Of a stretch of 57,845 nt of DNA, positions 1,927-6,546 are shown in pieces; position 1 is the first letter of the stretch; the number at the start of each line of letters is the position of its first letter. Below the pieces are notes generated by a model. The model saw only the letters and a program-made list of their open reading frames with translations. It made no database searches and was not told where the DNA came from. The position numbers and the translations under genes were made by a program. The stretch is from Octadecabacter sp. (GTDB lineage: Bacteria; Pseudomonadota; Alphaproteobacteria; Rhodobacterales; Rhodobacteraceae), in contig JABBAI010000062.1 in assembly GCA_018608045.1 (NCBI GenBank), forward strand, positions 1 to 57,845, written 5' to 3'.

Positions 1927-2799
1927 TCAGCGCTTGCCGTAATACAAGCCGACAACGTGTTCTGCTTCTGCAAAGAACAACCACCGCGCTGCGAACACGC
2001 CGACAAGGTGGCTCAGCACGGCGAAGGCGGCCAAGACGTGACTGTGGCTCATCATCAGCAAGACCAGCGGCAAACCGACCATCAACACAATCGCCAGAAT
2101 GCGCAGCTTGGCCGCATGTTTGCGCCCGATCACATGGACAAATTCCTTTAACAGGTAATTCGTGCCCGTGTGGGGTGGTTCAAACGCGCGCACGTCGCCA
2201 CGTGCCCCAAGACCCGTCGCAGTCGCCAACGTCGTGCCTGAATTTTTCAGTGCTTTGTCACCCAGAACCCAATGGGCAATCTGCGCGATACCCGCAATCG
2301 CCAGAAGCGGTATTGCAATCGCGACCTCACCCGACAGCAACGCGCCGCCCGCGATACAAATGGTCAGGAACATGATCGGCGTCGTGACATTGTGCCAGCG
2401 TGGTACCGTTTTGATCTGGGTGTAGATCATGGATGTGGTGAACACGGTTCCGATCGACAAGATCGCGCCGATGATCCCGATGGGTGTCCAAATCTGGCCC
2501 ATAAAGATCGCGCCAATCGCATAGATGCCCATGACCAAAAGCGCTGCGACCGCGCAAATGCCTTCGCGCGACAGCCAGCTTGACCGCCATTGTTTGAATG
2601 CCTTCAGCGCGCGTTCGGGATGCCCCAAATGGAACGTGGACGCGATAAGGCCGCCAACGGCCAAAAGATAGGCGATGGTAAAGAACACGAACGACACAAA
2701 CCCAGTCGCGCTGGGCATGCCAAATCCAAGAAACGCCAGCAATCCAAAGCCGAGGCCAGAGAGTGTCGAGAATAAAATAACGGACGGTGCAGGATGCAT
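1927..2799 (-). CDS. soeC: Sulfite dehydrogenase membrane anchor SoeC (DmsC family)
   Basis: A 290-residue protein with about eight hydrophobic helices starting at residue 5, matching the DmsC/NrfD-like quinone-reactive anchor of DMSO-reductase-type complexes. Its ATG overlaps the soeB stop (TAATG), so the two are translationally coupled. In the SoeABC sulfite-oxidising enzyme this subunit holds the cytoplasmic Mo and Fe-S subunits on the inner membrane and passes electrons to the quinone pool. The sulfite substrate is inferred from the xsc operon; the anchor sequence alone would also fit DMSO or tetrathionate reductases. Confidence 0.88.
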   Translation of the reverse strand: MHPAPSVILFSTLSGLGFGLLAFLGFGMPSATGFVSFVFFTIAYLLAVGGLIASTFHLGHPERALKAFKQWRSSWLSREGICAVAALLVMGIYAIGAIFMGQIWTPIGIIGAILSIGTVFTTSMIYTQIKTVPRWHNVTTPIMFLTICIAGGALLSGEVAIAIPLLAIAGIAQIAHWVLGDKALKNSGTTLATATGLGARGDVRAFEPPHTGTNYLLKEFVHVIGRKHAAKLRILAIVLMVGLPLVLLMMSHSHVLAAFAVLSHLVGVFAARWLFFAEAEHVVGLYYGKR

Positions 2800-3581
2800 T
2801 AGGATTTCCCCCCGTTTTTCGAAGCACCTGGCATGGCGTCCAAAGCCTTATCAAGCCAGCCGAGGAAACCCGTGGTCTCCGTCGCGATGGGTTCAAGGAA
2901 CGGCGCAAGGATATCGACGTCTTCACTGCGATCACGGTCCTTGGGACGGGGCGGCAGGTATTTGTTCACAGGCTTGGTGCCCATTTCAGGCATCAAATCC
3001 ATCCCGCCTCGTTCGCGAGTCAGGACGGACACGTTGCTATCGGGATCGGCGAAATCGCCAAAGTGGCGCGCATTGCTGGGGCAGGTGCGCACACAGGCGG
3101 GTTCGCGGTCCCGTTCTGGCAGGTTTTCGTTATAGATACGGTCCACGCACAGCGTGCACTTCTTCATGACCTTTTCTTCGGCGTCCATTTCGCGCGCGCC
3201 GTACGGGCAGGCCCATGCGCACAATCCGCACCCGATACAGTCTTGTTCGTTAACCAGCACGATCCCGTCCTCGACCCGCTTATAGCTGGCACCTGTCGGG
3301 CAAACAGTCACGCAGGGCGCGTCTTCGCAATGCAGGCAGGACTTTGGGAAATGGACCAATTGCGCGGGCGCGTCTTTGGGCTGAATTTCGTAACTGTGCA
3401 CACGGTTCAGAAAGGTGCCCGACGGGTTGGCCCCGTATGGGTCCTGATCAGACAGCGGCGCGCCGTAGTTTTCAGTGTTCCACCCCTTGCACGAAATCAC
3501 GCAAGCATGACAGCCCACGCACGTATCCAGATCGATCACGAGGCCGAGCTTTTTGGCCGTAGAAGTCGGGAGAGTTGTCAT
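2799..3581 (-). CDS. soeB: Sulfite dehydrogenase iron-sulfur subunit SoeB
   Basis: A 260-residue DmsB-type ferredoxin with four [4Fe-4S] cysteine groups: CVGCHACVISC, CLHCEDAPCVTVC, CIGCGLCAWAC and the split group CTLC...CVRTC. No signal peptide, so it is cytoplasmic and bridges SoeA and SoeC. I start it at 3581 (MTTLPTSTAKK), because this ATG overlaps the stop of the preceding small ORF and the residues further upstream are not ferredoxin-like. The sulfite role is inferred from the downstream-of-xsc context. Confidence 0.92.
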   Translation of the reverse strand: MTTLPTSTAKKLGLVIDLDTCVGCHACVISCKGWNTENYGAPLSDQDPYGANPSGTFLNRVHSYEIQPKDAPAQLVHFPKSCLHCEDAPCVTVCPTGASYKRVEDGIVLVNEQDCIGCGLCAWACPYGAREMDAEEKVMKKCTLCVDRIYNENLPERDREPACVRTCPSNARHFGDFADPDSNVSVLTRERGGMDLMPEMGTKPVNKYLPPRPKDRDRSEDVDILAPFLEPIATETTGFLGWLDKALDAMPGASKNGGKS

Positions 3582-3718
3582 GTGATTGCCCCTGTTTGGG
3601 TGGATAGGATTTGAACGACGGGTTCTTCTTTGCTGGCGTCCCATGTGGCGACCATCCAGATGAAACTGCCGATCATCAACGCAAGCGCTGCAAAGATCAG
3701 GATTAGGGTATTTTTCAT
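3578..3718 (-). CDS. Small single-helix membrane protein between soeA and soeB (46 aa)
   Basis: An ORF too short for most gene callers. Its ATG (3718-3716) overlaps the soeA stop as ATGA, and its own TGA (3580-3578) overlaps the soeB ATG in the same way. It thus fills the only gap between two subunit genes with exact coupling on both sides. The product has a two-residue N-terminus after Met, a hydrophobic helix at about residues 4-25 (LILIFAALALMIGSFIW) and a short polar tail ending QTGAIT. I do not recognise it. Position and coupling suggest an accessory or assembly subunit of the sulfite dehydrogenase. Expression is not shown. Confidence 0.7.
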   Translation of the reverse strand: MKNTLILIFAALALMIGSFIWMVATWDASKEEPVVQILSTQTGAIT

Positions 3719-6546
3719 TTCCCTAACTTCCATGCTTGCGACTTTGGCCCTGTGCCGATGGGTGATTTTTGCGCGGGCGTTACGGGCTGGGATTCTTTGG
3801 GCGCCGTCGTCTTTTCGATTTTCACGCGCAAATCAAACCAGGCGGCTTGGCCTGTGACGGGATCAGAATTCGACCACCGCATCCCGTCGGCCTGTTCGGG
3901 CAGCAGTTCGTGGATCAGGTGGTTGAGCAGGAACCCTTCGGTCGCCTCAGGCGCGTCCTCTTCGAGCGCCCATGCCCCTTTGCGTTTGCCAATCGCGTTC
4001 CACGTCCAGATCGTGTTTTCGTTCAACGCGGCCATGTGGGCGACGGGCACAGTGATGACGCCGCTTGGCGATGTGACCTTGGCCCAATCACCGTCTTTGA
4101 ATTTGTTTTCTTTCCAAATCTTGGTCGGCACATACAGCGGGTTCACGCCATGGATCTGGCGCAGCCACGCGTTCTGTGTGCCCCAGCTGTGATACATCGC
4201 CATAGGCCGCTGCGTCAGCGCGTGAACAGGGAATTCGTTTGTGTCGATCAGGTTGTCAGACAGCGGCGCGTACCAGATCGGCAGCGGGTCCATCGTGTCT
4301 TTGATCTGTTGGCGCAGATGATCCGGCGGCTGCACACGGCCATGCCCTTCGGCGGCGAGTTGCATACGGCGCAGCGGTTCGACGTAGGGCGTAAAGATGT
4401 ACGGCTGCACGCTATCAAAGAAGCCCATTTTTACGGCCCAATTCTGATAGGCCATGTTGAAAGGCTTGTAATAGGACGCCTCGGTCGGGACTTCAGAATG
4501 CCAGAAGCCACCGTTCTTTATGTAGGCGTCAAGCTGGCCTTGGTTCGGATCACCGCGCCCGTCTTGCAGCCCGTCCTCACCCATGCGCCAACCCGCTAAG
4601 GGGCCAACACCGGGGCGGCGGATGTGGTTGGTGATGTAGTCGGCATAGTCTTCGTACTTTTGCGATCCGTCGTCGTTCACGAAACCGGACAAGTTCAACC
4701 GCGCACCCAGTTCGCACAGCACAGATTGGAACCCGCGCACATCGCGGTCGGGTTCGATCACGGGCCAGCGGATTGCGTCGGCCACGGCGTCCGCTTCGCA
4801 GATCGGGCGATCGAGGAGGCTGATACAATCGTGGCGCTCAAGATATGTCGTGTCGGGCAGGATCAAATCGGCAAAGGCCACCATTTCCGATGAATAGGCA
4901 TCTGAATAGATGATGCGTGGGATGACATATTCGCCCGTTTCTGCGTCCTTGTCGGTCAACATCTCCATCACGCCGGTGGAATTCATGGACGAATTCCACG
5001 ACATATTCGCCATATACATGAACAGCGTGTCGATCTTGTAGGGGTCGCCCGCATGCGCGTTGGAAATCACCATGTGCATCATGCCGTGCGCCGACAGTGG
5101 GTTTTCCCATGTAAACGCCTTGTCGATGCGGATCGCGCTGCCGTCTTCTTTCAACAGCAAATCATCGGGTCCGTGGGGATACCCAAGGTGCGGGCCGTTG
5201 AGCGCCGCACCGGGCGTAACTTTGCCGTGGGGCTTGGGATGGGCTGTCGCGGGCTTGGGGTAGGGCGGTTTGAACCGCATACCACCGGGTGTTTCCACGG
5301 CACCAAGGATGATCTGCAAGGTGTGCAATGCGCGGCACGTCTGGAACCCGTTGGAATGCGCCGAAATCCCGCGCATCGAATGCATGGATACGGGGCGACC
5401 GATCATTTTATCATGCTTTTTGCCACGGAAATCTGTCCATGGGCGGTCCAGTTCAATCGCTTCTTCAAACGCGACGTGCGCCATATCGGCGGCCAACTGT
5501 TTGATACGATCCGCCGAAATGCCAGTCGCATCTTCGACCTTTTCAGGCGCGTATTGTGGATCAAGGAAACGATCTGCCATCAAATGGAACACAGGGCGGT
5601 GCGTGACACCCGCGTGGCGGTGCGTCGTGCCTAAATCAGGTTCAACGCCGATGCCGTTCCATGGGGCCAATTCACCTGTGCGCTTATCGATGACCAATGG
5701 TTCGCCGTTCTCATCGCGCATCAACAAACCGTTTTGATCCGACTTGGGGTCTTCGTTCACGATGCAAGACGCATTGGTGAACCGCGCGAGGTAATCAAGG
5801 TCCAGCTTACCCGCCTTAAACAATTCATGAATGATCGCCATAATCATCAAGCCATCGGTGCCCGGTGTGATGCCGAACCAATCATCGGCCACGGCGTTAT
5901 ATCCAGTGCGGATCGGGTTCACGCCAACAACGCGCGCACCGCGGGCTTTGATTTTGCCGATGCCCATCTTGATCGGGTTGCTGTCGTGGTCTTCAGCGAC
6001 GCCGAACAGCACGAACATCTTTGTGTGGTCCCAATCGGGCTGACCAAATTCCCAGAACGCGCCGCCCATCGTGTAGATGCCAGCCGCGGCCATGTTCACC
6101 GAACAAAACCCACCGTGCGCGGCGTAGTTTGGCGTGCCGAACCCTTGGGCCCAAAGCGACGTGAACGATTGCGACTGATCGCGGCCTGTGAAGAACGCCA
6201 GTTTGGACGGGTCTTCTTCGCGAATAGGGGCAAGCCACTCGGTCGCAATGCTCAGCGCTTCTTCCCATGAGATTTCTTCAAACTCACCCGATCCGCGCGG
6301 TCCGACGCGCTTCATCGGCGCTTTCAGGCGGGATGGCGCGTTGACCTGCATGATGCCCGCAGACCCCTTGGCGCACAAAACACCTTGGTTGACGGGGTGG
6401 TCTTTGTTGCCCTCGATATAGGCGACCTTACCGTCTTTCATATGCACGTCGATGCCGCAGCGACACGCACACATGTAACAAGTCGTCTTGCGGATTTCGT
6501 CGGATACCTTGGGGGACAGGTCCAGATCTGGTTGGTCTTTGGGCAT
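3715..6546 (-). CDS. soeA: Sulfite dehydrogenase molybdopterin subunit SoeA
   Basis: A 943-residue member of the DMSO-reductase superfamily. The N-terminal [4Fe-4S] ligands are C23, C26, C30 and C58 (CYMCACRC ... GVLCAKG). Molybdopterin-guanine-dinucleotide-binding regions follow, with a C-terminal domain near HALTQRPMAMYHSWGTQNAW. There is no twin-arginine signal, so the enzyme should work in the cytoplasm, as known for SoeABC of Allochromatium and Ruegeria. Sulfite is released by Xsc, encoded at the head of the same strand-block, and SoeA would oxidise it to sulfate. The 12-base gap from the exporter gene indicates one operon. Other DMSO-reductase-type substrates cannot be excluded from sequence alone. 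Confidence 0.9.
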   Translation of the reverse strand: MPKDQPDLDLSPKVSDEIRKTTCYMCACRCGIDVHMKDGKVAYIEGNKDHPVNQGVLCAKGSAGIMQVNAPSRLKAPMKRVGPRGSGEFEEISWEEALSIATEWLAPIREEDPSKLAFFTGRDQSQSFTSLWAQGFGTPNYAAHGGFCSVNMAAAGIYTMGGAFWEFGQPDWDHTKMFVLFGVAEDHDSNPIKMGIGKIKARGARVVGVNPIRTGYNAVADDWFGITPGTDGLMIMAIIHELFKAGKLDLDYLARFTNASCIVNEDPKSDQNGLLMRDENGEPLVIDKRTGELAPWNGIGVEPDLGTTHRHAGVTHRPVFHLMADRFLDPQYAPEKVEDATGISADRIKQLAADMAHVAFEEAIELDRPWTDFRGKKHDKMIGRPVSMHSMRGISAHSNGFQTCRALHTLQIILGAVETPGGMRFKPPYPKPATAHPKPHGKVTPGAALNGPHLGYPHGPDDLLLKEDGSAIRIDKAFTWENPLSAHGMMHMVISNAHAGDPYKIDTLFMYMANMSWNSSMNSTGVMEMLTDKDAETGEYVIPRIIYSDAYSSEMVAFADLILPDTTYLERHDCISLLDRPICEADAVADAIRWPVIEPDRDVRGFQSVLCELGARLNLSGFVNDDGSQKYEDYADYITNHIRRPGVGPLAGWRMGEDGLQDGRGDPNQGQLDAYIKNGGFWHSEVPTEASYYKPFNMAYQNWAVKMGFFDSVQPYIFTPYVEPLRRMQLAAEGHGRVQPPDHLRQQIKDTMDPLPIWYAPLSDNLIDTNEFPVHALTQRPMAMYHSWGTQNAWLRQIHGVNPLYVPTKIWKENKFKDGDWAKVTSPSGVITVPVAHMAALNENTIWTWNAIGKRKGAWALEEDAPEATEGFLLNHLIHELLPEQADGMRWSNSDPVTGQAAWFDLRVKIEKTTAPKESQPVTPAQKSPIGTGPKSQAWKLGK

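Follow-up and report, generated by a model that had tools for sequence, protein, structure and literature searches.

A short open reading frame between soeA and soeB as a likely translational relay and, in some Rhodobacteraceae, a conserved membrane microprotein

Results

A small membrane ORF fills the soeA-soeB junction

The window analyzed here, a stretch of 57,845 nucleotides from Octadecabacter sp., carries soeA, soeB and soeC on its minus strand, with a small ORF between the first two genes (Table 1). The domains of SoeA, SoeB and SoeC fit a putative enzyme of the molybdenum/iron-sulfur/DmsC type, and the name Soe is taken from the first-pass annotation and homology, not from a curated model. 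The small ORF runs on the minus strand from an ATG at 3718-3716 to a TGA at 3580-3578, and its 46 codons encode MKNTLILIFAALALMIGSFIWMVATWDASKEEPVVQILSTQTGAIT. SoeA ends in ...GGGAAATGA, and the soeA TGA at 3717-3715 shares an ATGA with the start of the small ORF. The soeB gene starts at 3581 (MTTLPTS...) within an ACATGA that it has in common with the end of the small ORF. Within soeA, 15 nt further upstream, another in-frame ATG would give a 51-residue form of the protein.

Table 1. Features of the soe locus in the window
Feature	Positions	Strand	Basis
soeA, molybdopterin catalytic subunit, putative upstream relay partner	3715..6546	-	translation; Molybdopterin and Molybdop_Fe4S4 domains; 3' end TGG AAG TTA GGG AAA TGA
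ATGA overlap, soeA stop/small ORF start	3715..3718	-	sequence; same place as the -4 soeA/soeB overlap in 21/26 loci outside the family
Small ORF, conserved core of 36 codons: basic N end, membrane helix, SFIWF..TWD..EEPV motif	3611..3718	-	alignments; dN/dS 0.16
Small ORF, variable tail, candidate relay segment kept open	3578..3610	-	tail pN/pS 0.84 (33 pairs); total lengths in relatives 36-77 aa
ATGA overlap, small ORF stop/soeB start	3578..3581	-	sequence; same ending in 89/96 distinct relatives
soeB, iron-sulfur subunit, putative downstream relay partner	2799..3581	-	translation; Fer4_11 and related domains
soeC, DmsC-type membrane anchor; one-base overlap with soeB (TAATG)	1927..2799	-	translation; DmsC domain E = 8e-18; gap of -1 in 107/136 loci

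The first-pass annotation had described a 46-codon ORF locked between the two genes by an ATGA overlap at either end and containing one membrane helix. All of this is borne out by direct reading of the sequence, and we confirmed that the small ORF is real. Its product has a single hydrophobic helix, with a top 19-residue Kyte-Doolittle mean of 2.64 among the ten segments listed. Averaged over 96 distinct relatives, net charge amounts to +1.3 on the N-terminal side of the helix and -1.7 on the C-terminal side, and the protein is therefore predicted to adopt an N-in/C-out topology.

Searches with 18 members of the family recovered only scattered matches in one or two members each, the best at E = 0.013 in Pfam and E = 0.009 in NCBIfam, none of them credible. 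Neither CydX nor CcoS was among the Pfam and NCBIfam matches listed for these members, and the best match in the PDB (E = 0.3) was not credible either. DUF6336 matched the window protein at E = 0.02 with 15.6 bits, below the cut-off of 25, and was dismissed. The window protein also had no match on plasmids.

The first 36 codons are conserved as a protein in part of the family

SoeB is encoded in 149 of 198 genomes of the Rhodobacteraceae, at 150 places. We examined the soeA-soeB junction at 147 of these, leaving out three at contig starts (G118, G061 and G194), and found the same small membrane ORF at 18 junctions, in one case degenerate (L081). A profile of its core matched 37 of 394 family genomes at E <= 1e-4, with one strong place per genome and the next match at E = 0.007. 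A scan of named genomes confirmed 100 stretches, from which 80 loci were kept (Octadecabacter, Yoonia, Loktanella, Roseovarius, Marivita, Nereida and others). These 80 were combined with the 30 profile places that we fetched, some loci coming from the same species, and the small ORF lay between soeA and soeB on the same strand in 110/110 loci. With strong places limited to one per genome and all 30 fetched from the 37 at soeA-soeB, the search for copies elsewhere in the genome gave no others. The 110 loci yield 96 distinct proteins, of which 70 start on the soeA stop and 89 end on the soeB start through ATGA-type overlaps.

An alignment of 75 rows shows no variation at F19 and W26 and at least 90% conservation at L5, I8, S18, W21, F22, T25 and D27. 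We compared 33 disjoint pairs with 72-99% DNA identity and obtained pN of 0.090, pS of 0.410 and dN/dS of 0.16 for the core, with 128, 75 and 324 differences at codon positions 1, 2 and 3. The same DNA read in the two shifted frames gave pN/pS of 1.40 and 2.52. The tails of these pairs have pN/pS of 0.84, and we therefore conclude that about 36 residues are selected and the tail hardly at all; the tail looks nearly neutral. Synonymous-site bias, which the first-pass annotation had put forward as a check, is thus present, both in dN/dS and in the predominance of third-position differences. Judged by these substitution patterns, the first 36 or so codons encode a conserved single-pass membrane protein under purifying selection, and their conservation as protein is far above chance.

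This protein is patchily distributed. Among class genomes outside the family, 285 of 289 were searched, and a single weak match was found (E = 0.006, within a 289-residue frame). soeA is present in 73 of the 289, and the small ORF is absent from all 26 junctions read outside the family, which were the best-scoring among 70 soeA places. Its core changed state 11 times on the tree, or was lost 28 times if it was gained only once, and this patchiness implies that Soe works without the core in many relatives. Conservation of the ORF in relatives with the same gene order, a further check proposed earlier, was accordingly seen in part: the ORF is kept, but only in a minority (18/147 junctions, 37/394 family genomes). 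SoeC columns did not track the presence of the core clearly more than SoeB columns did, with 4/290 against 4/250 at p < 1e-8 and 2 against 1 at p < 1e-12 in a crude comparison confounded by descent.

Two places in these collections are unusual. The contig of L240 is filed as a gammaproteobacterial metagenome-assembled genome, and its small ORF is one residue off that of Roseovarius sp. 217 (L241); this contig is probably mis-binned. Genome G112 (L062 and L143) has two soeB-like places, with 82% and 62% identity to the SoeB of the window.

Inserts of other sequence mostly keep the same frame

At the 26 loci examined outside the family (L266-L291), soeA and soeB overlap or touch without any insert, at -4 in 21, +1 in four and -8 in one. 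Among the 147 family junctions, soeA and soeB overlap directly in 58. Short inserts occur with the core in 17 and without it in 46, and long ones with the core in one and without it in 20; the rest are two unusable soeA ends and three places with no soeA match. On a FastTree phylogeny of 202 rows, switches between overlap and insert number at least 32, so the inserts do not go back to a single event.

We compared the 43 core-less inserts of 20-260 nt, omitting three shorter than 20 nt, with shuffled versions placed in random phase over 300 rounds; the soeB start in relatives was assigned by homology to residue 1 of the window protein. Strict bridges, whose start codon sits on the soeA stop and whose own stop sits on the soeB start, were found in 35/43 inserts, whereas the shuffles gave 7.0 +- 2.4 with a maximum of 15. 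By a loose definition, all 43 inserts were bridged against 10.2 +- 2.7 (maximum 20) in the shuffles, a count that includes one insert (L072) bridged through another frame and failing in the relay frame.

A large genus around G055 gave a similar picture. There, soeB is present in 50 of 58 genomes, and we read 48 loci (G727 and G709 were left out). Four of these are overlaps, and the gap equals 1 modulo 3 in 41 of the 44 inserts, including one core ORF and two whole genes. With this genus added, the relay frame is kept in 75 of 83 core-less short inserts and lost in eight (p = 3e-27, descent ignored).

Frame keeping goes with the presence of a start codon. When a start codon lies on the soeA stop, 69/73 inserts are in frame, compared to 6/10 when it does not (Fisher p = 0.006). 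Counting every relay-frame start close to the soeA stop, 79/79 ORFs terminate between -1 and +17 nt from the soeB start, compared to 1/4 inserts with none, a contrast limited by descent and small numbers and by limits that were set post hoc, after the in-frame result. The landing is at exactly +4 in 73 of the 79 relay ORFs, which span 10-87 codons. In five related loci (L323, L325, L328, L329 and L338), soeA ends in TAA or TAG rather than TGA; L325 and L338 are out of the relay frame and the others are in frame. By eye, several inserts have a Shine-Dalgarno-like stretch ahead of soeB, and soeB might therefore start independently in these cases.

Long inserts, neighboring junctions and background

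In junctions longer than 200 nt, chains of ORFs bridge 27/28, and spacers are bridged in 24/24 cases between soeA and the core ORF and in 4/4 between the core ORF and soeB; these counts were made with wide limits and without a shuffled control. Several junctions hold the core ORF plus a separate relay ORF. Others contain whole genes; among nine of the inserted proteins, searches recognized alpha/beta hydrolases, a LysE-type transporter, DUF6882 proteins, a methyltransferase-like protein and an Imm10-like protein. Whole genes occur between soeA and soeB at L195, L181, L221, L252, L219, L218 and L220, and at family loci such as L020, L045, L086 and L105. They are mostly joined through short overlaps, and the small ORF, where present, usually adjoins soeB. 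The insert of about 790 nt at L049 holds a single 265-codon open frame that reaches from soeA to soeB. Our impression is that part of it resembles an out-of-frame DUF6882 gene, as if the relay frame had outlasted the gene.

At the soeB-soeC junction, the gap is -1 in 107/136 loci and exceeds 20 nt in only two (L245 and L253; 37 and 99 nt), each of which contains a relay ORF (12 and 32 codons). A gap of 18 nt (L015) was not bridged in the tested frame. As a background, we looked at same-strand gaps of 20-260 nt in general. Within the window, one of 19 contains an exact stop-to-start ORF, and this is soeA-soeB. In 400 kb of a relative, with genes called by a simple script, 2/95 such gaps were bridged strictly, one of them soeA-soeB, and 10/95 loosely.

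Relay peptides and the origin of the inserts

The relay peptides have pN/pS of 0.83 over 14 pairs, compared to 0.10 for soeB of the same pairs, with uncertain alignments for the low-identity relay pairs (0.62-0.72). Relay DNA has a pS of 0.21 in these pairs, below the 0.45 of soeB; therefore, either the figure is biased by the choice of pairs or the DNA itself is constrained.

We also searched for the inserts in a 380 kb sample of one relative. Twelve of 99 inserts, core ORFs included, match elsewhere in this sample, nine of them at one same place and 11 from the relative's own genus, and control pieces of soeB gave no matches. The window insert had no match elsewhere in these 380 kb. An origin from repeats is therefore supported for a part of the inserts only.

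Discussion

Together, these results make it likely that the frame between soeA and soeB is a termination-reinitiation relay that couples SoeB to SoeA; in some lineages, it also encodes a conserved membrane microprotein. A gap of about 20 nt is reported to nearly abolish coupling by termination-reinitiation (PMC10666635), so that DNA inserted between the two soe genes would uncouple them unless an ORF joined both ends. The same source describes coupled or overlapping pairs as enriched in subunits of complexes. We infer the behavior of the ribosomes as follows: those finishing soeA would reinitiate at the shared ATGA and translate the short ORF, then terminate at the second ATGA and start anew on soeB. 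SoeB would stay coupled to SoeA despite the DNA inserted between genes that overlap outside the family. The soeA-soeB inserts have the features of such a relay, with a start at the upstream stop, a stop at the downstream start and a frame without peptide conservation. By sequence comparison, inserts of other sequence retain both the frame and the coupling, and their peptides bear little sign of selection.

The main rival explanation, which we regard as unlikely, is that inserts are translated as a shield against Rho polarity, lest long untranslated RNA be exposed between soeA and soeB, and that reinitiation itself is not selected. Polarity through Rho loading onto untranslated RNA is described as established (PMC12548453). 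Open insert frames and chains of ORFs in long junctions are likewise predicted by shielding. The exact landing at +4 (73/79), however, exceeds what shielding needs. Inserts of 24-58 nt, which are short for Rho loading, are also open. Their relay ORFs have 10-21 codons, and seven of these come from a single group of related species. These short relays speak against Rho as the sole cause.

We consider it quite improbable that the small ORF is simply a dedicated gene for a SoeABC subunit with ordinary coupling, the other inserts being mostly its decayed remains. Such a gene would account for the linkage in 110/110 loci and for the purifying selection, and the core ORF and other inserts do occur within one genus (L299). 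Decaying genes, however, would not hold the frame in 75/83 inserts; frame loss would be expected as commonly as in neutral DNA, and the contrary is seen. The inserts that match elsewhere in the relative (12/99) and the junctions with a core ORF and a separate relay ORF also argue against this explanation. We reject chance open frames in short GC-rich DNA as exceedingly improbable. In its favor, between 19 and 32 of the 43 inserts lack stops in their other frames too. Chance leaves the phase unexplained (75/83), however, and shuffles gave only 7.0 +- 2.4 strict bridges where 35/43 were seen, against a background of 2/95.

The first-pass annotation had taken the precise coupling at both ends of the small ORF as the mark of a real subunit or assembly factor. 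A conserved small membrane protein tied to soeA-soeB stands, but the double ATGA fails as the argument for it. The 5' ATGA is the soeA-soeB overlap outside the family too (21/26 at -4), and inserts of other sequence are coupled equally precisely (79/79 with a relay-frame start). Coupling therefore indicates a relay and not, by itself, a subunit.

Apart from the relay, in the lineage of the window and in some others of the Rhodobacteraceae, the first 36 or so codons encode a conserved single-pass membrane microprotein of predicted N-in/C-out topology. Our comparisons show purifying selection on this microprotein and its linkage to soeA-soeB, and it is probably an accessory Soe subunit or assembly factor acting next to the membrane anchor SoeC. 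As expected of a SoeABC subunit, the gene is tied to the soe operon and the protein is conserved (110/110 loci, dN/dS 0.16); presence wherever the complex is, also expected of a subunit, was not found (18/147 family junctions, 0/26 outside). CydX is a small single-helix subunit of a respiratory enzyme, and the microprotein resembles CydX-like subunits in its size, its one helix and its place in the operon of a quinone-linked enzyme. It differs in that none of the 18 members has a credible Pfam match and in that its association with the enzyme is putative. SoeABC belongs with DmsABC and other CISM enzymes, and SoeC matches DmsC and is encoded in the same operon. One review gives SoeABC as three subunits and no further one, in agreement with the first-pass annotation, and places the expected quinone site of SoeC on the cytoplasmic side (PMC8076601); here, an additional small ORF lies between soeA and soeB. 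In Ruegeria pomeroyi, soeA, soeB and soeC are listed under the consecutive tags SPO3559-SPO3557 (PMC4334477), and no fourth soe gene is reported in the titles or abstract openings of the literature on soeABC and sulfite dehydrogenase that we found.

The nearest precedent for the coupled inserts is provided by the MIRUs (mycobacterial interspersed repetitive units), named as inserts that join with -4 spacing in a source that also names short ORFs merely delivering ribosomes (PMC12548453). Unlike MIRUs, the inserts described here comprise many sequences and lengths (10-87 codons) at one particular junction, which accepts whole genes too, and one kind of insert encodes a conserved membrane protein. 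Classic termination-reinitiation at ATGA or TGATG junctions, described as enriched within one complex (PMC6728339, PMC10666635), links two neighboring genes, whereas at soeA-soeB a third ORF of almost free sequence would carry the coupling across an insert. Synthetic nonfunctional ORFs that encode nonsense peptides just upstream of a target are reported to raise its translation (PMC13255528), but these are engineered and do not lie between two subunits. Apart from the remark on MIRUs (PMC12548453), the excerpts of the coupling literature that we found contain nothing on sequence-free relay ORFs.

For studies of small proteins, these results carry a caution, because a small ORF with tidy ATGA overlaps is not evidence of a functional peptide. 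They also offer a natural experiment on translational coupling at one junction, with at least 32 overlap/insert changes and many lengths and sequences, in which the frame is kept nearly every time and losses occur where the start codon near the soeA stop has gone. For the widespread sulfite-oxidizing enzyme, they would add a conserved membrane protein that has no family model. A more speculative reading, to which we give limited credence, is that the soeA-soeB junction acts as a nursery for new genes and that the microprotein arose by de novo gene birth from a translational relay in the Rhodobacteraceae. If this is true, selection for coupling would keep any DNA that lands there open and translated, so that random peptides are made continuously. 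The junction may then represent a route by which random DNA is kept in translation long enough for a gene to form.
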